DNA of 64,000 nt, taken from assembly GCA_018266835.1 (NCBI GenBank), contig JAFDZP010000004.1, positions 62,001 to 126,000 on the forward strand, given 5' to 3'. The position numbers were made by a program, and so were the translations under genes. The stretch is from Bacteroidota bacterium. Its GTDB lineage: Bacteria > Bacteroidota > Ignavibacteria > Tepidaquicellales > Tepidaquicellaceae. Of this stretch, positions 3,036-15,263 are shown in pieces. The number at the start of each line of letters is the position of its first letter. Positions within the stretch are counted from its first letter, which is position 1. The notes under the pieces are model-generated. The model ran no database searches. It was not told where the DNA came from and was given only the letters and a program-made list of their open reading frames with translations.

Positions 3036-3248
3036 ACTTGTCTCACTTTCATTTTTAAAAAATTCGTTTTTGTAAAGTTTTAATTCTGCCAATGGCGGAG
3101 TACGCTTTTTATTGGTTCATTATGTCCTTGAAGAGTTTACATCTTATTTTCCCTGGCTTGGGCAAAAGTAAGGTTTTAATTCTTGAATGAGAAATTCATT
3201 GTGAATTTTTTTAAAGCACTAAACTAAACCAAAAACAAAAATCAAAAA

Positions 3249-5363
3249 ATGAAAAGACAAACCCTACTTCTTTTTATTCTTATGGTATTTTCTGTATCTA
3301 TTGTGAGAGCACAGGATTCAGATACTGCCAGATATCAAACCAATGAAATTGATGTCATTGGATTGATTAACGGTCTTAAGCCGATTGAAATTCCGCAATC
3401 AGTCGGAGTTTTAACAGGCAGAGACCTCAACAGATCTAACGGTATTCACTTAATGAACACAATTAATCTTATTCCCGGCGTAAGAATGGAAATGAGAACA
3501 ACAACAGCAGGAACAAGAATTGTTATCCGCGGCTATGGTAACCAAACCAACTTCAATGGTATCGGATACAAGGCTTACTATAATGATATTCCTCTTACAG
3601 ATGCTGACGGTTCAACAATTATGGATGACATCGACTTCACAACACTAGGAAGAATCGAAGTATTCAAAGGACCTTCATCAAGCGTTTACGGAACAGGTAT
3701 CGGCGGCGTTGTAAAACTTACAACTGAAAAAGCCCCTTACGGAACTTCTGTAAAACAAATGGTTGAAGCAGGCAGATACGGTTTATTCAGAACCAATACT
3801 TCTGTAAGCATGGGCGGCGCTCATTCAAACTTATGGCTTAACTACGGCCATCAGCAGGAAGACGGTTTCAGAATTCACGGTAACTCAAACAAGAACTTTG
3901 TTACATTGAACGGAACATTGTATTCTGATAACAAACAAACAGTTTCTATTTTCGGTAACTATACATACTCATTTGATTATTTATCAGGTCAGGTAGATAG
4001 CAACGGTTTCTATGCTTACCCTGATACAGCTGAAGTACCATACTTAAGAAATGATGCTCACATTAATATTGAGAGCAGCATGTTAGGTCTTTCGCACGAC
4101 TATAAATTCTCAAGTATTTTCTCAAACATGACAAGCATGTTTGCAGAAGGCTTTACATTAGATCAGCCTTTTGCAGCAGGTCTTAACAGAACCAGCAAAC
4201 AAAAATTCGGCGGAAGAACAACATTCACACTTTCTCCGATGATGGGCGATGTTAAAACACGCTTTATGTTCGGTGGTGAGTACTTAAAGAATATCAGCTT
4301 TAATAAAGGTTATGCTCTTTCAAACAGTGTGCTTGGAGCAATGACTTCGGATGTAGAAGTAAGACCTGAGCAGTCAAATGTATTCTTACAGGCTGAGTTA
4401 GGTTTCTTATCAAACACATCGCTTACTTTAGGCGGCAGCTACAACATGATCAGATATGATATCGCTGACATGAGAGTTGCAACAGGATACATCAACAAAA
4501 GCGGAAGCAAAAAATTTGACGGAGTATTCACACCAAGAGTTGCTCTTAACCAGATTATTGCAAAGAACTACTCAGTATATGCAAGCTTCTCACAAGGATA
4601 TTCAGCACCGGGAACAGGCGCAGTTGTAAATGCAATCGGTCAGGTAAATACAGCTCTTAATCCTGAAAAAGCAAACAGCTATGAAGTAGGTACAAAAGGA
4701 ACAATGGCAAACGGAAGATTCTCTTACGAACTTGCAGGTTACATGATGGATGTTACAGATAAACTTGTAAGCCAGAACGTAGCAGCAACACAAACAACAC
4801 CTGCTTACACAATTACAGTTAACGCAGGTAAAGTAAGATATCAGGGAATTGAATTAGGCCTTAATGCAGATATTACTCCTTCTAAGAGTTCATTATTCAG
4901 CTTAATCAGACCGTTCTTATCTTACACCTATACAAATGCATACAATGTTGATTTCAAATTAAATACTTCTGATACATCAGCAGCAGGTAATTTAAATGAC
5001 AAAAAAGTATCAGGCATTGCACCTCATTTATTAAATGTAGGCCTTGATGTTGAAACTAAACCCGGAATTTACCTTAATGGTACATTTATGTTTGTTGATA
5101 AAATGCCTATCTCTTTTGATAATTTCAGAAATGCAGATTCATACAGCACTATTAATGCAAAATTAGGATTCAAGAAAAATTTAGGAAAGAACTACGTTCT
5201 TGACATTTTCGGTGGAGCAGATAATCTCACAAGCGCTAAATACAGCCAGATGATATTTATCAACTTAACACCGCAGAATGCATCAACAAAATATTTTAAT
5301 CCTGCACCGCAAACACCAACATGGTACGGCGGAGCTTCTTTAAGATATATTTTTGGAAATTAA
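3249..5363 (+). CDS. TonB-dependent outer-membrane receptor (iron/haem uptake locus, receptor 1)
   Basis: 704 aa with a signal peptide ending VRAQ at about residue 21. The plug domain follows (IPQSVGVLTGRDLNRSNG, then RIVIRGYGNQTNFNGIG and RIEVFKGPSSSVYGTGIGG), and then a beta-barrel ending in the aromatic C-terminal strand LRYIFGN. Known role: energised import of a chelated metal or cofactor across the outer membrane. There is no N-terminal carboxypeptidase-like domain, unlike receptor 3. It is 50 bp upstream of hmuT and probably co-transcribed with it, so haem or an iron chelate is the likely ligand. The 213-bp leader contains an imperfect palindrome, AATGAGAAATTCATT at 3186-3200, that could be a Fur-like site; this is weak. 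Confidence 0.88.
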   Translation: MKRQTLLLFILMVFSVSIVRAQDSDTARYQTNEIDVIGLINGLKPIEIPQSVGVLTGRDLNRSNGIHLMNTINLIPGVRMEMRTTTAGTRIVIRGYGNQTNFNGIGYKAYYNDIPLTDADGSTIMDDIDFTTLGRIEVFKGPSSSVYGTGIGGVVKLTTEKAPYGTSVKQMVEAGRYGLFRTNTSVSMGGAHSNLWLNYGHQQEDGFRIHGNSNKNFVTLNGTLYSDNKQTVSIFGNYTYSFDYLSGQVDSNGFYAYPDTAEVPYLRNDAHINIESSMLGLSHDYKFSSIFSNMTSMFAEGFTLDQPFAAGLNRTSKQKFGGRTTFTLSPMMGDVKTRFMFGGEYLKNISFNKGYALSNSVLGAMTSDVEVRPEQSNVFLQAELGFLSNTSLTLGGSYNMIRYDIADMRVATGYINKSGSKKFDGVFTPRVALNQIIAKNYSVYASFSQGYSAPGTGAVVNAIGQVNTALNPEKANSYEVGTKGTMANGRFSYELAGYMMDVTDKLVSQNVAATQTTPAYTITVNAGKVRYQGIELGLNADITPSKSSLFSLIRPFLSYTYTNAYNVDFKLNTSDTSAAGNLNDKKVSGIAPHLLNVGLDVETKPGIYLNGTFMFVDKMPISFDNFRNADSYSTINAKLGFKKNLGKNYVLDIFGGADNLTSAKYSQMIFINLTPQNASTKYFNPAPQTPTWYGGASLRYIFGN

Positions 5364-5413
5364 TTTATAAACTATCAGGGCAGTTTTTATAAGCTGTCCT
5401 GAATTTAAAAAAT

Positions 5414-6289
5414 ATGAAAAAAACTCTTGGCATTTGTTTAATACTCTTAGTTACAGCTCTGATTACTTCTTGCGGCAGGTTCGCGAATAAAGAAAGCGCA
5501 ACCACCAAAAACGGAAAAGAAAGAATAGTCTGCGTATCAAAACAGCTTACTGAATTTATGTTTGCAGTCGGCGCAGGTGATAAATTAGTCGGTGTGGATT
5601 TATCAAGCACGTATCCGCCCGAAGCGCAAAAATTAGTTACAGTCGGTTATCACAGAATGCTCAGTGCTGAAGGCATTATCTCGCTCAATCCTACCTTAGT
5701 AATTCATAACGGTGGTATTGCTCCGGAAAGTGTTATAACTCAGCTTGAGAAAGTTGGTATTCCGATGAAAGTTTATATGGGTACACCTAATATAGACAGC
5801 TGTAAAGTTTTAATGATGCAGATTGCAAGAGAATATAATAACGAAGCAAAAGGAATTGAGATGTGCAACAAGCTTGATGCCGATATGAAAACAGCGGCGG
5901 AAAATTTAAAAAAATATACGGATAGACCAAAGGTTTTAATTATACATTACGGAAGACAGATGAACAATTATTTTGTAATGGGTAACAGAGGAACTGCAAA
6001 CGATATGCTAACATGGGCAGGCGGAGTGAATGCAGCTGATACATCCGGCTTCAGAAATTTAAGCGCGGAAGTAATTGTTAGAAGCCAGCCGGATGTAATA
6101 CTTGCTACTGATTTCGGTTTCGACAGAACAGGCGGTGAGGAACATTTTGTTGAGCTTCCCGGAATAAATTTAACTCCGGCAGCGAAGAATCATAGAATTT
6201 ACAGAATAGAAGAGCATGATTTAGTATATCTCGGACCAAGAACAGGTGAGAATGTTATAAAATATCAGGAACTGATTCACAAGAAATAA
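5414..6289 (+). CDS. hmuT: HmuT-like haem-binding lipoprotein of an ABC importer
   Basis: 291 aa. The N-terminus is a lipoprotein signal with lipobox LITSC, making Cys20 the lipidated residue. The rest is a class III (BtuF/FepB-like) substrate-binding fold. The block RIVCVSKQLTEFMFAVGAG, then LVGVDLSSTYPPEA and VGYHRMLSAEGIISLNPTLVI, is characteristic of HmuT/ShuT. The Tyr in VGYHR (Tyr79) corresponds to the conserved haem-ligand tyrosine of that family. It delivers ligand to the permease encoded next. Gap of 81 bp to hmuU. I prefer haem over cobalamin or a siderophore because of the GYxRxLSAEG motif and the HmuV-like ATPase; the exact ligand is still inferred. Confidence 0.85.
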   Translation: MKKTLGICLILLVTALITSCGRFANKESATTKNGKERIVCVSKQLTEFMFAVGAGDKLVGVDLSSTYPPEAQKLVTVGYHRMLSAEGIISLNPTLVIHNGGIAPESVITQLEKVGIPMKVYMGTPNIDSCKVLMMQIAREYNNEAKGIEMCNKLDADMKTAAENLKKYTDRPKVLIIHYGRQMNNYFVMGNRGTANDMLTWAGGVNAADTSGFRNLSAEVIVRSQPDVILATDFGFDRTGGEEHFVELPGINLTPAAKNHRIYRIEEHDLVYLGPRTGENVIKYQELIHKK

Positions 6290-6370
6290 GATACGTATGA
6301 TTTCAAAATATGTATTTGTAATAAGATGTAAGAAACACAAGAAAAGACTAAGAAGGAGAAAAGTCGCAAA

Positions 6371-7441
6371 TTGATTTTCAAAAAAACAAGCTACGGCACA
6401 ATTTATACTGTGCTTTCAATTATACTAGTTCTTTTAATAATAGTGTCTGCCAGAACAGGCGCCGTGAACATTCCATACGATCAGATATACGATTTCCTGT
6501 ATGAAAAGATTTTCGGCGTTGAAATCCCCGGAGTCAATAAAATTACCGAAGGATTATTCTTTTACATCAGGCTGCCAAGAACTTTTATGTGCATCATTGT
6601 CGGTGCGGGGCTATCAGTCTCTGGTTCTTTAATGCAGTCGTTGTTCAGAAATCCTATCGTAGAACCCGGAATAATCGGAACATCAGCCGGCGCGGCATTC
6701 GGCGCTGCTTTTGTTTTTGTGTTCGGCAAAATGGATTTTTTAGGAAGAATGGCTTTCTTCGGAGATTTCTTTTTGCCTCTAGCGGCTTTCGCAGGAGCCT
6801 TCCTCGCAACAATGGTTGTGTACAGATTTTCCTCTTCATTTGGAAAAGTCAACATCACAACTATGATACTTGCAGGGATGGCAGTGAATGCAATGGCTGC
6901 AGGCGGAACAGGTTTTCTTGCTTACATTGCAAGGGACCCGCAGGCGCGTTCTATCACATTCTGGAATCTCGGAACATTTTCCGGAGCTGACTGGAAGTCT
7001 GTAACAATAGTTTTTGTTGTAACTTTGTTCAGTATTCTTTTTATCAGAAGATATGCAAAGCAGTTAAATGCAATGCAGCTTGGTGAAACTGAAGCAGGTT
7101 ACCTGGGAGTAAATACAGAGAGAACAAAAATTATTCTTATTCTTGTGAATACCCTGATGGTTGCAATAGCAACTTCATTTGTAGGAGTAATTAGTTTTGT
7201 GGGATTAGTTGTTCCGCATTTACTCAGATTAATGAAGGGTTCTGATAACAGGTATTTGTTAACAGGCTCGGCATTGCTTGGAGGCATCTTAGTTGCACTG
7301 GCCGATATGCTGTGCAGAGTCATCATTGCTCCTGCGGAAATGCCGATTGGAATAATCACTGCATTCGTGGGAGCACCGTTTTTCTTGTGGCTGCTGAACA
7401 GAAACTTAAGGTCACCTAATAAAGGAGGTTTCTTTGCTTAA
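6371..7441 (+). CDS. hmuU: FecCD-family permease of the haem ABC importer
   Basis: 356 aa from a TTG start preceded by AAGGAG. About ten hydrophobic segments. The family block RLPRTFMCIIVGAGLSVSGS with MQSLFRNPIVEPGIIGTSAGA is the classic FecCD/BtuC signature, and GLVVPHLLR near the C-terminus is the segment that contacts the ATPase. Inner-membrane channel for haem (or an iron chelate) handed over by HmuT. Its last 8 bases overlap the start of hmuV, so translation of the two is probably coupled. Confidence 0.9.
   Translation: MIFKKTSYGTIYTVLSIILVLLIIVSARTGAVNIPYDQIYDFLYEKIFGVEIPGVNKITEGLFFYIRLPRTFMCIIVGAGLSVSGSLMQSLFRNPIVEPGIIGTSAGAAFGAAFVFVFGKMDFLGRMAFFGDFFLPLAAFAGAFLATMVVYRFSSSFGKVNITTMILAGMAVNAMAAGGTGFLAYIARDPQARSITFWNLGTFSGADWKSVTIVFVVTLFSILFIRRYAKQLNAMQLGETEAGYLGVNTERTKIILILVNTLMVAIATSFVGVISFVGLVVPHLLRLMKGSDNRYLLTGSALLGGILVALADMLCRVIIAPAEMPIGIITAFVGAPFFLWLLNRNLRSPNKGGFFA
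7421..7428 (+). promoter_or_regulatory. Strong Shine-Dalgarno sequence fixing the TTG start of hmuV
   Basis: AAAGGAGG lies inside the 3' end of hmuU, five bases before the TTG at 7434. It decides the hmuV start and shows that this organism does use Shine-Dalgarno pairing, at least at some genes. Confidence 0.75.
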
Positions 7442-8262: not shown

Positions 8263-10407
8263 ATGGACGTGAAAAAAATTCTAACATTTCTGTTCATGTT
8301 ACTTTTTGTAGTAGTTGTCAAAGCTCAGGACGACGACGAAAAAGAAGAACGTGAAATGGAAGCCAAAGACTCACTTGAGTTCAACATAAATACTGTAATG
8401 GTTACAGGTACCCGGACAAGTAAAAAAATTATCGATATCCCTTATGCTGTAGAGCGTGTGGATAAGAGCGAGTTCAAGTTCAACCGTAACGTAAGCATTA
8501 AAGATATTCTTGCTGACGTTCCCGGGTTGTTTCTTCAGAACCGTTACGGCAACCACGACGTGCGTGTATCTATCAGAGGATACGGCACGCGTTCAAACGC
8601 AGGTGTGCGCGGAATAAGAATTTTACAGGACGGAATACCTGAATCAGAACCTGACGGTTCGACAACAATCGATGCTATCGATTACAACTCTTTGGGCGGA
8701 GTTGAAATTGTAAAAGGAAATTCCTCTTCACTTTATACAAACGCTCCGGGCGGCGTTATAAATTTTATTTCGGATTTGAGCTATCCGTACAATCATGTTA
8801 CTTCTATAAATCAGGTCGGTGAATTTGGATTAAGACAAAACGGTGTTAAGATAGGATTGCTGCAAAACAATTACAGATTTTTTCTTTCTTATAATTACAG
8901 AAACTATGACGGATACAGACCGCATAGCAATGAATACATAAATACAGTTAATTCTATTTTTGATGCTTATCCTGACAGCAAAACACAAATAGAAATACTC
9001 GGAAATTTTGTAAGAGGTATAATTAAATTACCAGGTTCATTGACATTAGCTGAATATAACGCCGATCCTCTTCAGGCAAGACCTTTAGCTGTTACGCAGG
9101 ATTTCAGACGCGAAACACAAAAAGGAAGACTTGGAGTAAGATATAAAAAATTATTCGGTAAAAACGATAATCAGGAATTTGAAGTGACAGGTTTCGGCGC
9201 GATAAAAGATTATATAAATACAACTAATACACTTTACACTTTGATCAACAGATATGTTTTGGGAAGCACAGTGAGATATGTTAATAAATCAATGATAGCC
9301 GGCAGAGAAAATGAATTCTCAACAGGTCTGGATTATTTTTATCAGACAGGACCGACATCAGATTATGATAATGTCGGAGGTGTAAAGGGATTCTCTCTCT
9401 TAGCACAAAACACGGAAACATTAAATAACTTAGGTGTTTATTTTTCAAATCAGGTCAACGTTGTAAAAGGCAAAATGGATTTGTTATTAACGGGAAGATT
9501 TGACAGAATAATTTATGAAACAACTCCATTGCAATATCTTGGTTCAATTGATACAACAAAAATATATCAGCAATTTACACCGAAAATTGCACTGAATTAT
9601 AAATTAACTCCGAACATTGCAATATATACTTCGTTCGGAACAGGTTATGATACACCGGCATTAAGCGAGCTTAACAACTATCCTTTCTCATCAAACGGCG
9701 GAAGGACAGTTTTAAATCCGGACTTGACTGCACAGAAATCTTTGAATTTTGAAATAGGAATTAAAGGGACTCTTCAAAATGAAAGAAGAGAGTTATTCAA
9801 GAAAACATATTTTACTGCAACATTGTATAACAGCAGAGTAGATGATGAAATCGTTCCTTTTGTATTAAGCGATAAGGTGTTTTTCAGAAATGCCGCTAAG
9901 ACTAACAGAACAGGTGTTGAAATCGGATTGAAGAATGAACTTGTTGACGGACTGGAAGTTGTTTCAAATTACAATTATGCATTTTTCAAATACACAGATT
10001 ATGTTGCGAGAATTTATGATATAAACGGAAATATAACAGATGAAAATTACGGAGGAAATATTTTACCTTCATTCCCGAGACACATTGTAAATCTTATTCT
10101 CAGCTACAAATACAGAGTGAATAAAAAAATAACAATACTTGCACAGGCAGACGGAGATTATATAGACAAAATGTTTGTGAACGATAAAAATTCTGAAGAG
10201 ACGGGAAGTTATTCGTACTTTAATTCCTTGTTAGGGGTAACCGCTGAGTTTGATAAATTCAATTTATTATTCTCGTTGGGGTTAAATAATATCTTTGACA
10301 GACAGTATGTCGGTTTTGTAAATATAAACGACAGCAACGGAAGATATTATGAATTGGGGCAGCCAAGGAATTTTTATTCTGGACTTAACATAGAGTATAA
10401 ATTCTAG
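8263..10407 (+). CDS. TonB-dependent receptor, Fe-chelate type (receptor 2)
   Basis: 714 aa. Signal peptide ends VVKAQ at about residue 22; then an acidic linker (DDDEKEEREMEAKD), the plug (VMVTGTRTSKKIIDIPYAVERVD, VRVSIRGYGTRSNAGVRGIRILQDGIPE, GGVEIVKGNSSSLYTNAPGGVI) and a 22-strand-type barrel ending LNIEYKF. The plug motifs resemble FecA-like iron chelate receptors, in which RGxGxRSxxGVRGxRxLxDGIP is common. The acidic run after the signal peptide could be a TonB-box region or a metal-binding linker. It sits between hmuV and the HmuR-like receptor, so it is likely part of the same iron/haem regulon. Confidence 0.87.
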   Translation: MDVKKILTFLFMLLFVVVVKAQDDDEKEEREMEAKDSLEFNINTVMVTGTRTSKKIIDIPYAVERVDKSEFKFNRNVSIKDILADVPGLFLQNRYGNHDVRVSIRGYGTRSNAGVRGIRILQDGIPESEPDGSTTIDAIDYNSLGGVEIVKGNSSSLYTNAPGGVINFISDLSYPYNHVTSINQVGEFGLRQNGVKIGLLQNNYRFFLSYNYRNYDGYRPHSNEYINTVNSIFDAYPDSKTQIEILGNFVRGIIKLPGSLTLAEYNADPLQARPLAVTQDFRRETQKGRLGVRYKKLFGKNDNQEFEVTGFGAIKDYINTTNTLYTLINRYVLGSTVRYVNKSMIAGRENEFSTGLDYFYQTGPTSDYDNVGGVKGFSLLAQNTETLNNLGVYFSNQVNVVKGKMDLLLTGRFDRIIYETTPLQYLGSIDTTKIYQQFTPKIALNYKLTPNIAIYTSFGTGYDTPALSELNNYPFSSNGGRTVLNPDLTAQKSLNFEIGIKGTLQNERRELFKKTYFTATLYNSRVDDEIVPFVLSDKVFFRNAAKTNRTGVEIGLKNELVDGLEVVSNYNYAFFKYTDYVARIYDINGNITDENYGGNILPSFPRHIVNLILSYKYRVNKKITILAQADGDYIDKMFVNDKNSEETGSYSYFNSLLGVTAEFDKFNLLFSLGLNNIFDRQYVGFVNINDSNGRYYELGQPRNFYSGLNIEYKF

Positions 10408-10435: not shown

Positions 10436-12880
10436 ATGAGGAAAAAACACCTTCTCCATTTGTTGTTCTTGTTTTTTGCCGCACCATTTCTTGAAGCGCA
10501 GGAAATTACGGTAAACGACAAATCCACTTTGCAGCCAATCGCAAAGGTTGTAATAACCAGTCCTTCAAGTAATGAGACGGTCTGGACAAACGAGCTTGGG
10601 CAGGCAAACATTAGTAAGTTCCAGGGAGCAGAAAAAATTTCATTCTTCAGCCCTGATTATGCAAGAACTACTTTCAGCTATGATGAAATCGTAAAGAAAA
10701 ACTTTATGGTTTATCTGGCACAGAAAAGTTACTCAACAGATGAGATAGTAATTTCAGCCGATAAGTTCGGAGAGAATCTCACAGATATACCGCGTCAGAT
10801 AGAAGTAGTGAACTCGCGGGAAATAGAATTTGAAAACAAACAAACAACAGCAAGGCTGCTGGAAAATACAGGCAATGTATTTGTGCAGATGAGTCAGCAG
10901 GGCGGTGGGAGTCCGGTGCTTCGCGGATTTGAAGCTAACAGAGTTTTAATTATGATTGACGGAATCAGATTAAATAATGCCATCTTCAGGGGTGGTCACT
11001 TGCAAAATGTGATACGGATAGACCAGAGCATGCTTTCCAGGATGGAAATCATGTACGGTGCCGGTTCTACATTATATGGAAGTGACGCACTTGGTGGAGT
11101 AATGAGCTTTTATACTAAGAGCCCATTATTCAGCGGAAGCGACAATAAAACTCTGTATAAAGTAAGCACAGGCAGCAGATTTTCATCCGTAAACAACGAA
11201 GCAACAAATCATCTTGATGTGAATATCGGATTGAAGAACGTTGCATTTTTAACAAGCTTATCCTACTCAAGCTTCGGCAATCTGATGCAGGGTAAGGAAG
11301 GTTTCGATGCTTTAAGAGAAGGCTGGAAAAGAAATTACACAGTCCAAAGAACAATGGCAGGAACAGATGTGATGATAAAAAATTCAAACGCATATCTGCA
11401 ATCGCCTACGGGTTATTCTCAGTATGATATCATGCAGAAGATTTTAATAAAAGGAAGCGAAAGCGTTAGCCATTTATTTAATTTCCAGTATTCAAATACG
11501 AACGATATTCCAAGATACGACAGGCTGAATACTTTTAACGGCGCAGGTACAAACTATACAAATGCCGAATGGTATTACGGTCCTGAAAAGAGAATAATGG
11601 GTTCATATACTTTAGGGCTTAAATCAAATTCAGGAATGTTTGATAACTCAAATTTAATATTGTCATTCCAGAATGCAGGCGAGAGCAGACATAACAGAAG
11701 CTTTAACTCTTCTACTATAAAAAATCAGGTAGAAGATGTAAAAGTTTACTCTTTAAACTGGGATTTGAAAAAAGTTGTTAAGCAAACACACGATATAAGC
11801 TATGGTGTGGAGGCATCTTATAACAATGTTACTTCAACTGCAACCAGATACAACATCAATACTGCTGCAGAAACTCCTGCAGATACAAGATATCCTGTTG
11901 ACGGAAGCAACATGACTTACATTTCAGGATATGTTGTTGATAACTGGAAGCTAAGCCCGCAGGTTTATATGAACATAGGAGCGAGAGTAAATTACGTAGG
12001 ACTTAATGCTAACTTTACTGATACAACATTCTTTAAATTTCCGTTTAAAGAAGCAAAACAAAATAACATTGCTCCTACAGGAAATTTAGGTTTCACATTT
12101 AAGGTGCAGCCCGATTTCAAAATTTATGTTAACGGTTCAATGGGTTTTCGCGCTCCTAACATAGATGATGTTGCAAAAGTATTTGAATCGGTAAAAGGCA
12201 GCGGACAAACTTTAGGAAGAGTAATAGTTCCTAATGCCGACTTAAAACCGGAGACTACTATAAACGGAGAGCTTGGTCTTTCAAAAACATTCAATAATGC
12301 AGTGCAGGTTAATGCGACAGGATATTATACTTTATTGAATGATGCAATTGTTTCTGCTCCTTATACTTATAACGGAAGCAGCCAGATTATTTATGACGGA
12401 GTACTTGCAAATGTTTATGCTTATCAGAATGTTCAGAAAGCATATTTAGTCGGCGGTAATTTTTCTATCAATGCAGATTTCAGCGAAAACGTTTCTTTCA
12501 TGAGTACAATAAATTATACTTATGCCAGAGTTAAAGCCGATACTGCAAATTATCCGCTGGACCATATTCCGCCAATGTTTGGTAAAACCGGTTTTGTATT
12601 TACATTTGATAAGTTCAAAGCAGATGTAAATGCAGTTTATAATTTTAAAAAGAAATTAGAAGATTACAGTCCCTCAGGTGAAGATAATTTAGCAGATGCT
12701 ACAATAGAAGGAATGCCTGGCTGGATGACATTGAATTTGAGAACAGGATATCAGCTTACAAAAAGTCTGAATGTTCAGTTCGATCTGGAAAATATTTTAG
12801 ATCAGAATTACAGGGTGTTTGCTTCGGGAATAAGTGCTCCGGGCAGGAACTTTATTTTCTCTTTGAAAGGTAACTTCTAA
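10436..12880 (+). CDS. HmuR-like TonB-dependent haem receptor (receptor 3)
   Basis: 814 aa. Signal peptide to about residue 21 (FLEAQ), then a carboxypeptidase-regulatory-like beta domain (residues about 22-100) that Bacteroidota receptors often carry, then the plug (TDIPRQIEVVNSREIEF, SPVLRGFEANRVLIMIDGIR, MEIMYGAGSTLYGSDALGG) and barrel. Near residue 570 is FRAPNIDD and near residue 599 PNADLKPE, the FRAP/NPNL-type box of haem and haemoglobin receptors. Together with the adjacent HmuTUV-like transporter this supports haem as the ligand. The gene ends the locus and is followed directly by the tandem structured-RNA array. Confidence 0.88.
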   Translation: MRKKHLLHLLFLFFAAPFLEAQEITVNDKSTLQPIAKVVITSPSSNETVWTNELGQANISKFQGAEKISFFSPDYARTTFSYDEIVKKNFMVYLAQKSYSTDEIVISADKFGENLTDIPRQIEVVNSREIEFENKQTTARLLENTGNVFVQMSQQGGGSPVLRGFEANRVLIMIDGIRLNNAIFRGGHLQNVIRIDQSMLSRMEIMYGAGSTLYGSDALGGVMSFYTKSPLFSGSDNKTLYKVSTGSRFSSVNNEATNHLDVNIGLKNVAFLTSLSYSSFGNLMQGKEGFDALREGWKRNYTVQRTMAGTDVMIKNSNAYLQSPTGYSQYDIMQKILIKGSESVSHLFNFQYSNTNDIPRYDRLNTFNGAGTNYTNAEWYYGPEKRIMGSYTLGLKSNSGMFDNSNLILSFQNAGESRHNRSFNSSTIKNQVEDVKVYSLNWDLKKVVKQTHDISYGVEASYNNVTSTATRYNINTAAETPADTRYPVDGSNMTYISGYVVDNWKLSPQVYMNIGARVNYVGLNANFTDTTFFKFPFKEAKQNNIAPTGNLGFTFKVQPDFKIYVNGSMGFRAPNIDDVAKVFESVKGSGQTLGRVIVPNADLKPETTINGELGLSKTFNNAVQVNATGYYTLLNDAIVSAPYTYNGSSQIIYDGVLANVYAYQNVQKAYLVGGNFSINADFSENVSFMSTINYTYARVKADTANYPLDHIPPMFGKTGFVFTFDKFKADVNAVYNFKKKLEDYSPSGEDNLADATIEGMPGWMTLNLRTGYQLTKSLNVQFDLENILDQNYRVFASGISAPGRNFIFSLKGNF

Positions 12881-12892
12881 AAATTTTAGTAA

Positions 12893-12980
12893 CGTGCTGT
12901 ACTTTCGTTCTTTCTTATCACAACCAATCAACTCCTTCTGATTGAGGTTTAGTTTAATACTTATAAAAAAGCGCAGCACG
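12893..12980 (+). ncRNA. Structured RNA element 1 of the tandem array
   Basis: Outer stem CGTGCTG (12893-12899) with CAGCACG (12974-12980), extended by one U-G pair. Inside is the conserved block TTCGTTCTTTCTTATCA (12904-12920), then hairpin CAATCA (12925-12930) / TGATTG (12939-12944) with loop ACTCCTTC, then GGTTTAGTTTAATAC. A further AACC/GGTT pairing can extend the inner hairpin. The loop is complementary to a GGAG-type Shine-Dalgarno sequence. It starts 12 bases after the hmuR-like stop codon, so it could be processed from that transcript or have its own promoter. Confidence 0.55.
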
Positions 12981-13010
12981 CTTATTAATCTGACAAAAAA
13001 AATAAAAGTT

Positions 13011-13100
13011 TTAGTGTGTCGTTTCTTCGTTCTTTCTTATCAAATCAATCAACTCCTTCTGATTGAGGTTTAGTTTAATACATAAGGAGCGGCGCACTAA
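13011..13100 (+). ncRNA. Structured RNA element 2 of the tandem array
   Basis: Outer stem TTAGTGTGTCG (13011-13021) with CGGCGCACTAA (13090-13100): 11 pairs, two of them U-G if read as + strand RNA but A-C mismatches on the - strand, which fixes the orientation. The sequence of this stem is unrelated to that of element 1. The interior repeats the same block (TTCGTTCTTTCTTATCA at 13026-13042) and the same hairpin, CAATCA / ACTCCTTC / TGATTG at 13046-13065. An AAGGAG at 13084-13089 could pair with its own loop. Unit spacing from element 1 is 122 bp. Confidence 0.6.
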
Positions 13101-13122
13101 TTATTTACTGACAATTTAAAAA

Positions 13123-13194
13123 GCGGGTAATAAACTTTTAGAATTTACATGCAATCTCCGAAACTTAGCAATAAATTATAAAAGTTATTCCCGC
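13123..13194 (+). ncRNA. Structured RNA element 3 of the array (divergent)
   Basis: Long outer stem: GCGGG (13123-13127), an interior bulge, then AATAA and CTTTTA to 13140 pair with TAAAAGTTATTCCCGC (13179-13194). The interior contains CAATCTCCGAAACTTAG, a shortened version of the CTCC-bearing segment, but lacks the TTCGTTCTTTCTTATC block. TCTTTAAAAAC follows the stem, so this copy may also act as a weak terminator. Confidence 0.4.
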
Positions 13195-13227
13195 TCTTTA
13201 AAAACAAGAAAAAGCTGCGGACGTAAA

Positions 13228-13295
13228 CGCCCCGTTCTTTCTTATTGTTCAATCTCCTTCCGATTGAAATTCAGTTTAAAATATTTTTACGGGTG
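13228..13295 (+). ncRNA. Structured RNA element 4 of the tandem array
   Basis: CGCCCCGT (13228-13235) pairs with ACGGGTG (13289-13295) with one bulge and one G-U pair; alternatively CGTAAA (13222-13227) pairs with TTTACG (13286-13291). The interior has CGTTCTTTCTTATTG, then hairpin TTCAATC (13248-13254) / GATTGAA (13262-13268) with loop TCCTTCC, then ATTCAGTTTAAA. The inner stem differs from copies 1 and 2 in sequence and length but is fully paired, as expected if structure is conserved. Confidence 0.5.
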
Positions 13296-13393
13296 ACTTA
13301 AGAGCCAAACATGAAAATATTATTAATAACTGTGGTGAAGTTCGGTTTGAGCAAAATAATACTATATAAATTAAGATAAAACAAAAAAATTAA

Positions 13394-13461
13394 GTGCCGT
13401 TAGACGAAAAATAAAGACAAACTCTCCTTTCGATTAAATTTTTCAGCGGTTTTAACGGCAC
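13394..13461 (+). ncRNA. Structured RNA element 5 of the tandem array
   Basis: Perfect 9-bp outer stem GTGCCGTTA (13394-13402) / TAACGGCAC (13453-13461). The interior carries CAAACTCTCCTTTCGATT, recognisably the CTCCTT hairpin segment but with its small stem largely lost. A sixth, weaker CTCCTT-containing hairpin may lie at 13486-13501. The rest of the gap to the gene at 13632 holds nothing else I recognise. Confidence 0.4.
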
Positions 13462-13631
13462 ATTTATTTAAAATACGGATTTTCTCTCCTTCAAAGCGGA
13501 GTATGAACTTTATTTTTTAGCTGCTTTCAAATTGCTTGAATAGTTCATCTTTCGCTTTTTTTGTATATTATTATTATCCCTGCGAATTAAATATATTACT
13601 CTTATGTTATGATTAGGAGATTGCAAAGCAT

Positions 13632-15263
13632 ATGAAAACAAAAATTTTTTTGCTGATTATTTTATCGGCATTGTCTTACGGCTTTTTTAAGCAGAGTGGA
13701 ACAGTTCAACAATCATATTATTCGGACGTAAATGTTGCACCAAATTTCAGGATTTTTCCGAGCGGAGTTTCTCAAACTGAACCTGAAATTGTCCCTCACC
13801 CTACAAATCCTAATATTCTTTTCGCCAGTTCATTTACACTTAATGGAGCATTCAGAAGTGAAGGTGTGTACGTTACTACCAATGGCGGTAATTCATGGTT
13901 TGGAAGTGATACATGTAAAGGTCAGTTAATACAAAATCATGCCGGTGATCCGGGTCCGATGATAGATAAAGATGGAAGATTTTACATGACTCATTTAGGG
14001 TCACAAAGTTTATTTGTCGGGCAGTTTGCACATTACTCAACAGATTTAGGTTTGACCTGGTCAAACCAGTATCCTATACAAACAGGCGACCAATACAAAG
14101 GCGATATCAGAAGTGATATTAGCCCCGCAAGTCCTTACTATGGCAAAACACATTACTCCTGGGTACCGATTATCTCGCCAATATCTGTTTACTATTCTTC
14201 AACAACAAACGGAGGAGTAAATTGGGCAGCGCCCAGGCAGATAAATAATCCCACTCAAAGAAATAATGGAGCAATGGTAAAAATGAATCGCAACGGTGAC
14301 GTATATATTACATGGGCAGCTGTAAGCTCAATCTCTCCCTTTCCTGAAAATTATTTAGGACTTGCAAAATCTACTAACGGCGGAGCAAATTTTTCCGTCA
14401 CAGAAAATATTTACAATGTGGGCGGAGTAAGCGGATTTCTACCTCAAAAAGGAAATATTCTGGTAAATGGTTTGCCTGATATTGATATAGATATGTCAAC
14501 AGGACTGAGAAGCGGATGGATATATATAATTACAACTGAAAAAAATCTTTCTCCTGCAGGTTCAGATCTTGATGTGATTTTCAGAAGGTCTTCTGACGGA
14601 GGACAAACATGGTCTCCGAGAATAAGAGTTAATCAGGACCCTGTAAATAATGGTAAGATACAATTTTTCCCTGCAATGCGTGTTGATGATGGCGGCGGAA
14701 TAAATATTATTTATTATGATGACAGAAGATGCGCAAGTGATTCAAGCGAAGTTTTTATGTCACGCTCTACAGATGGCGGAGATACATGGAAAGATTTTCC
14801 TATCAGTGACCACAGATTTAAACCTTCCCCCATTGCCGGCACCGGAGCAGGTTACATGGGAGATAATATTGGAATTACAAATTCAGGCAATTTCTTATGG
14901 GCTCTGTGGATGGATAATTCAACAGGTATTTATCAGGTATGGGCAACTAAATTAGATGTCACAACACTTGGCATTAATCAGATAAGTAATGTTATTCCCG
15001 ATAAATTTAAGCTTGCGCAAAATTATCCGAACCCATTTAATCCGACTACAAATATTAAATTCAGCATTATGGAAAAAGGTGAAGTTAATATGAATGTATA
15101 TAATACTGAAGGAAAGCTGATACAAACCCTAGTTAATAAAGTTTTACCTGCAGGTGAGTATGAATATACTTTTGATGCAGCAGCGTTAAACTCCGGAGTT
15201 TATTTTGTTACCATTCAGGCAAATGGTTTTACAGATTCTAAAAAAATGGTGTTAGTAAAATAA
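13632..15263 (+). CDS. T9SS-secreted sialidase-like BNR/Asp-box propeller protein
   Basis: 543 aa. The N-terminus is a signal peptide (IFLLIILSALSYGFF). The body carries repeated Asp-box motifs of the S-x-D-x-G-x-x-W type (TTNGGNSWF, STDLGLTWS, SSDGGQTWS, STDGGDTWK), the hallmark of six-bladed sialidase-type propellers. A C-terminal T9SS sorting domain (NYPNPFNPTTNIKF to KKMVLVK) occupies about the last 85 residues. I do not see a convincing sialidase active-site set (FRIP, Arg triad), so a carbohydrate-binding or structural role is as likely as hydrolysis. Its stop codon abuts the next gene's ATG. Confidence 0.82.
   Translation: MKTKIFLLIILSALSYGFFKQSGTVQQSYYSDVNVAPNFRIFPSGVSQTEPEIVPHPTNPNILFASSFTLNGAFRSEGVYVTTNGGNSWFGSDTCKGQLIQNHAGDPGPMIDKDGRFYMTHLGSQSLFVGQFAHYSTDLGLTWSNQYPIQTGDQYKGDIRSDISPASPYYGKTHYSWVPIISPISVYYSSTTNGGVNWAAPRQINNPTQRNNGAMVKMNRNGDVYITWAAVSSISPFPENYLGLAKSTNGGANFSVTENIYNVGGVSGFLPQKGNILVNGLPDIDIDMSTGLRSGWIYIITTEKNLSPAGSDLDVIFRRSSDGGQTWSPRIRVNQDPVNNGKIQFFPAMRVDDGGGINIIYYDDRRCASDSSEVFMSRSTDGGDTWKDFPISDHRFKPSPIAGTGAGYMGDNIGITNSGNFLWALWMDNSTGIYQVWATKLDVTTLGINQISNVIPDKFKLAQNYPNPFNPTTNIKFSIMEKGEVNMNVYNTEGKLIQTLVNKVLPAGEYEYTFDAAALNSGVYFVTIQANGFTDSKKMVLVK

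Follow-up and report, generated by a model that had tools for sequence, protein, structure and literature searches.

Tandem copies of a probable structured RNA element between a TonB-receptor gene and a BNR-protein gene in a Bacteroidota bacterium

The repeat and its neighbors

We analyzed a 64,000-nucleotide stretch of the genome of a Bacteroidota bacterium of the family Tepidaquicellaceae (G000), hereafter called the window. It carries an operon that encodes a TonB receptor, a periplasmic binding protein, a FecCD permease, and an ATPase, the last of which passed the threshold set for NCBIfam's "heme ABC transporter ATP-binding protein" model. Judging from these assignments, the operon plausibly serves haem uptake. 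Between the stop codon of a haem/haemoglobin-type TonB receptor gene and the gene for a secreted BNR-repeat protein lie 751 noncoding bases (Table 1). The T9SS sorting domains encoded here are consistent with Bacteroidota, broadly defined. A direct-repeat search of this intergenic region revealed a shared core of about 56 nt in three tandem copies, c1, c2, and c4, the first of which starts 5 to 6 nt past the receptor stop codon (12880).

Table 1. Features of the locus, in window coordinates (G001 is a genome of the same genus)
Feature	Position	Strand	Description
Possible target site	3218-3230	+	TAAACTAAACC, within the TonB gene 3249 leader; complementary without mismatch to GGUUUAGUUUA from the core
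TonB receptor 8263	8263-10407	+	Homologue lies directly upstream of the element in G001
Haem/haemoglobin-type TonB receptor 10436	10436-12880	+	Directly precedes c1; G001 has no match
c1	12886-12990	+	Core 12904-12960, closed by a 15-bp stem; loop ACUCCUUC on the inner hairpin; 71.5 bits
c2	13011-13100	+	Core 13026-13081, closed by a stem of at most 17 bp; loop ACUCCUUC; z = -4.6; 115 bits (training member)
c3	13122-13195		17-bp hairpin, z = -5.2; without the core
c4	13219-13300	+	Core 13232-13282 conserved; shortened loop UCCUUCC; weak closing stem; 24.3 bits
c5	13394-13461	+	Doubtful relative; perfect 9-bp closing stem; only CTCCTTTCGATTAAATT is like c4
c6	13484-13494	+	TCTCCTTCAAA; only an 8-mer in common with the reference copies
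T9SS-tailed BNR-repeat secreted protein	13632-15263	+	Downstream of the array or element in both genomes

In local alignments to c2, c1 and c4 scored 103 and 45, respectively, against maxima of 30 and 27 among shuffles. The core's sequence profile (R2) gave 69 bits for c2, 66.7 bits for c1, and 50.6 bits for c4, as opposed to about 15 bits at most elsewhere in G000 and G001; these scores are inflated, since the three copies are training members of the profile, but the gap to the background is still large. c1, c2, and c4 are true paralogues, and the array holds these three secure copies and a doubtful one, c5. The latter's sole match was to c4, 18 nt long (p = 0.006); it gave p = 0.66 against c2 and 5.4 bits in the R2 profile.

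Pairwise tests found no core similarity in c3 (p = 0.99 against c2 and 0.46 against c4), and the longest words that c3 and c6 share with the reference copies c2 and c4 are at most 8-mers, which is the chance level. An earlier note on this DNA, which counted at least four and probably five or six elements, therefore overcounted them. The 11-mer of c6 is also found upstream of the same BNR gene in G001 (p = 0.018). The c3 hairpin, whose run of five T's lies on the minus strand only, is possibly a terminator or boundary hairpin. A coding repeat was ruled out: the reading frame is broken between copies by a 1-nt insertion in c1 and a deletion in c4.

Fold, strand, and distribution

Relative to dinucleotide shuffles, the folds of c1, c2, and the G001 copy had z values of -3.2, -4.6, and -6.0, respectively; c5 was intermediate (-2.6), and c4 was at -0.2. 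In the consensus fold shared by c1, c2, and the copy from G001, about 15 pairs make up the closing stem, the conserved interior occupies a large internal loop, and the ACUCCUUC loop caps a 7-bp hairpin. Loops of the CTCCTT type, described previously for this array, are indeed present, as ACUCCUUC in c1, c2, and the G001 copy and as UCCUUCC in c4.

In c1, c2, and the G001 copy, the closing stem differs in sequence from copy to copy and yet stays paired. Four pairs are changed on both sides, and 93% of cells are paired versus 32 to 46% when the register is slid. A folded RNA is therefore likely, and the covariation, coming from three well-paired sequences of two genomes, amounts to support rather than proof. 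The proposal that each copy has its own closing stem of unrelated sequence holds for c1 and c2, where these stems are strong; the closing stem of c4 is weak. The inner stem of c4, which was said to have changed while staying paired, is in fact identical (TCAATC/GATTGA) once a loop deletion is allowed for, and it adds no covariation.

Of the earlier note's interpretation, this much is supported: the RNA element is multicopy, structured, and under selection, and its loop is CU-rich. Rfam holds no described counterpart: Rfam 15 had no match in the window at the gathering score, and a permissive search of positions 12860 to 13640 returned only chance-level scores.

The plus strand is favored, but not proven, as the functional one. 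Both flanking genes lie on it, and in the consensus fold there, changes that keep G-U pairing occur at four pairs and 5 of 72 cells are broken, as opposed to two pairs and 7 of 90 cells on the minus strand. The fold energy of c2 was -29.3 on the plus strand versus -14.2 on the minus strand. c1, c3, and the G001 copy, on the other hand, fold slightly more stably on the minus strand. Thus, the argument for rightward reading from G-U pairs survives in the consensus and loses force in these individual folds.

One further full copy was found in G001, the only genome of the same genus that was examined (L161:3006-3095). It sits between the homologue of receptor 8263 and the same BNR gene, and its core is that of c2 apart from a TT/AA difference within the 5' segment and changes at the final positions. 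The BNR proteins of the two genomes are 68% identical, against a near-identical RNA core, and the intergenic DNA outside the element gave no alignment of comparable strength. In both genomes, the units are confined to one locus, where they are tandem in G000.

The covariance-model search of relatives that the earlier note had proposed yielded the element in the genus-mate alone, with no other member in 99 relatives by this method or in 40 relatives by profile search. Weak covariance-model matches in other genomes and BLAST matches in two of them (G004 and G005; L009 and L010) lacked both the core and synteny and were set aside as chance. The exact core was not found in viral contigs. In public genomes, the matches listed for a loose gapped pattern were scattered and apparently unrelated, a search in which further members may have been missed. 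The family, its structure as supported by compensatory change, and its distribution were obtained directly in these analyses.

The array had been described as lying beside a haem operon. In G001, which retains the RNA, neither receptor 3249 (searched at 1e-80) nor receptor 10436 (at 1e-60), both of the haem/siderophore type, has a match. Haem is therefore not a conserved association of the RNA; the neighbors conserved in both genomes are receptor 8263 and the BNR gene.

Two observations concern these neighbors themselves. The haem-type receptor genes (window 3249-7441 and 10436-12880) have no close match in G001, so they were gained or lost within the genus. The adjacency of the TonB receptor and the T9SS-tailed BNR protein (8263-10407 and 13632-15263) recurs across many of the family's genera and in a member of the sister family (L162-L167 and L173-L179), a gene order that suggests a functional pair.

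Possible functions

The conserved unpaired interior, the drifting paired stems, the tandem copies, and the lack of a coding frame together fit paralogous small RNAs. The marks of multicopy sibling sRNAs, namely, paralogous copies, a shared core, and a conserved structure, were found in the three secure units and in the one from G001. The explanation that we prefer, tentatively and with somewhat less than an even chance of being right, is a family of paralogous structured RNAs confined to this genus, which probably arise in the 3' region of the TonB-receptor operon and work as sRNAs by base pairing.

The units would be read rightward from this region. Each would be pinched off by its own closing stem, the sequence of which would be free to drift, and would display a constant interior made up of the pyrimidine-rich 5' segment UUCGUUCUUUC, the hairpin with the CU-rich loop, and the 3' segment GGUUUAGUUUAA. 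Most likely, the units would be freed from the transcript of the operon or have transcripts of their own. They would then act as base-pairing sRNAs on the leaders of outer-membrane and secreted-protein genes, with contacts made by the GGUUUAGUUU segment and, in the few genes that have one, at the Shine-Dalgarno (SD) sequence. Transcription, strand, release, base pairing, and targets are parts of the model that we infer from sequence.

No plus-strand promoters above chance, no TAnnTTTG Bacteroidota promoter box upstream of the units, and no U-run after the closing stems were found. The lack of terminators after the units and of promoters, together with the start of c1 just behind the stop codon, fits release from the operon transcript. 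These facts also fit a cis-acting structured 3'-UTR or intercistronic element that would act on the TonB-receptor mRNA, by protecting, processing, or terminating it, and would uncouple it from the BNR gene, without trans targets. We consider this a serious rival and place it close behind the sRNA reading, as possible though rather unlikely.

Most of the relatives that lack the array keep the receptor and BNR genes adjacent with short gaps, several of which hold ordinary hairpins, a point in favor of a cis role. The same role is favored by a perfect A/T-rich hairpin of about 19 bp with a T run, terminator-like, that follows the element in G001 (L161, 3101-3160), and by the strong, unrelated c3 hairpin that follows c2 in G000. 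The loop of the G001 hairpin has TTCTGATTG in common with the core (p = 0.2). However, it is the unpaired interior, besides the stems, that is near-identical between the genomes, whereas simple stabilizers need no fixed loop and termination needs no multiple copies.

To return to base-pairing sRNAs, the conserved 3' interior segment, GGUUUAGUUUAA, has a leader match, AACUAAACC. Four core segments were tried in a comparison of pairing with shuffles. For the GAGGUUUAGUUUAAUAC segment, the mean of the 15 best sites among 617 start regions was -13.4, versus -11.4 ± 0.5 for 40 shuffles. Several of the best sites have AACTAAACC near the start codon, and the leader of TonB gene 3249 contains an 11-nt perfect complement to the 3' segment (Table 1). 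Genome-wide, about half of the pattern matches lie in true leaders, many of them of secreted or outer-membrane proteins, and three orthologous pairs of G000 and G001 keep the leader motif. Leaders may hypothetically be targeted via the 3' segment.

The match of AACTAAACC to the RNA may nevertheless be a coincidence, because relatives without the RNA have the motif at a similar density (13 matches in G000 versus 9 in G003, 8 in G023, and 8 in G014, whose genomes are smaller). For the same reason, the motif was ruled out as proof of coevolution. A predicted pairing of -23.4 kcal/mol with the leader of TonB gene 8263 ranked 11th of 644 and is not decisive. A new sRNA class, with stem-closed tandem units whose GGUUUAGUUUAA segment pairs with a recurrent AACUAAACC motif just upstream of the AUG of outer-membrane and secreted-protein genes, is in our view improbable. 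If true, it would mean a regulon based on a leader motif instead of on SD sequences, in an organism that hardly uses the latter.

The leader motif also deserves mention apart from the RNA. In the form AAAAACTAAACC, followed by ATG 5 to 8 nt on, it recurs before genes for secreted proteins, at window positions 3222-3230, at G000:C2:1226423, C2:1333891, and C5:47643, and at G001:C3:155592, C3:102083, and C2:19116. It may act in leaders as a signal in its own right.

We assessed how often start sites in this organism carry an SD sequence. AGGAG occurs at -17 to -4 in 2.4% of 617 G000 starts, against a background of 1.3% and control values of 37.8% for Firmicutes, processed the same way, and 1.1% for Bacteroidota. 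Bacteroidia are generally without SD sequences, and the tail of their 16S rRNA is occluded (PMC8710568, PMC6847099, PMC9976891). The 16S gene was not found in the G000 assembly, which leaves its anti-SD sequence unreadable.

AAGGAG is the most overrepresented leader 6-mer in G000 (20 of 644 leaders versus about 3.8 expected). As an observation on the group, this hexamer is strongly overrepresented in some 3 to 4% of leaders, in the 644 genes of G000 and in the relatives G040, G014, and G025. SD use is thus rare yet present, which is neither a general SD system nor a total lack of one.

These numbers bear on the reading originally proposed, in which LhrC-like sRNAs with CU-rich loops would mask SD sequences and be aimed at haem uptake. 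The ACUCCUUC loop is complementary to AAGGAG, and the minority of leaders enriched in this hexamer includes SD-like sites before the TTG starts of the operon transporter genes 6371 and 7434. However, AGGAG precedes so few starts that masking is not supported as a general mode, and target prediction with the CU loop against the 617 start regions gave matches no better than those of shuffled loops. The occurrence of the RNA in G001, where receptors 3249 and 10436 have no match, argues against haem genes as its object. We regard this reading as quite improbable, although a few SD targets among the AAGGAG-bearing genes are possible. A CU-rich loop alone is no evidence for SD masking, and the SD usage of the host should be measured first.

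We give as little credence to a protein-binding decoy, in which the conserved pyrimidine-rich interior would recruit or titrate an RNA-binding protein. The unpaired positions of the 5' segment and the loop are strikingly rich in U and C and invariant, but no candidate protein emerged: profile searches of the genome found neither CsrA (PF02599), which was found in controls, nor an RRM protein (PF00076). An RNA dependent on RbpB or another RRM protein and a CsrB-type GGA-loop decoy on the minus strand were ruled out on these grounds.

A functional RNA on the minus strand, with the GAAGGAGU loop mimicking a ribosome-binding site or a GGA loop, is the least probable reading and a very remote one, given that the slightly more stable minus-strand folds of three hairpins are set against the far poorer fold of c2, the slightly better consensus fit on the plus strand, the orientation of both flanking genes, and the absence of CsrA.

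Post-transcriptional control has been little studied in this Bacteroidota-like branch, where start sites rarely carry an SD sequence. Because of this rarity, the usual logic of sRNAs, the blocking of SD sequences, cannot be the general rule there. A multicopy RNA that is compact, has clear boundaries, and is specific to one genus gives a tractable system in which to ask how sRNAs might locate their targets without SD sites.

Comparison with known small RNAs

A close parallel is LhrC1-5 of Listeria monocytogenes, multicopy sRNAs with CU-rich loops able to pair with AG-rich SD regions, whose targets include haem genes (PMC5880928). Listeria targets are SD regions, whereas SD sequences occur in about 3% of G000 genes. 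Each G000 unit has a single CU loop and no terminator behind it, compared with the three CU-rich regions and the terminator of LhrC, and the units match no Rfam sequence family.

The csRNAs of streptococci (PMC3091779) are likewise a set of several closely similar sRNAs, whose stem-loops flank a conserved, unpaired anti-SD segment. They have CiaR promoters and terminators and belong to SD-using bacteria, whereas neither a CiaR-type promoter nor a terminator feature was found at the G000 units.

Within the phylum, the earlier statement that no counterpart had been described was too strong. FopS is a 14-member paralogous sRNA family in Bacteroides, although a different RNA; it acts near the start codons of outer-membrane transporter mRNAs (PMC11697453). 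The FopS/GibS sRNAs resemble the G000 units as a paralogous family in Bacteroidota with a seed common to the copies (PMC11697453). FopS differs in having a 5' single-stranded stretch and a terminator hairpin and in being bound by the RRM protein RbpB. The G000 units are stem-closed and lie in one tandem cluster, in a genome in which no RRM protein was found, and they have no Rfam match. Since at least one defining feature each of LhrC and of FopS was tested and found wanting, the units are filed under neither and probably form a new family of multicopy structured RNA.
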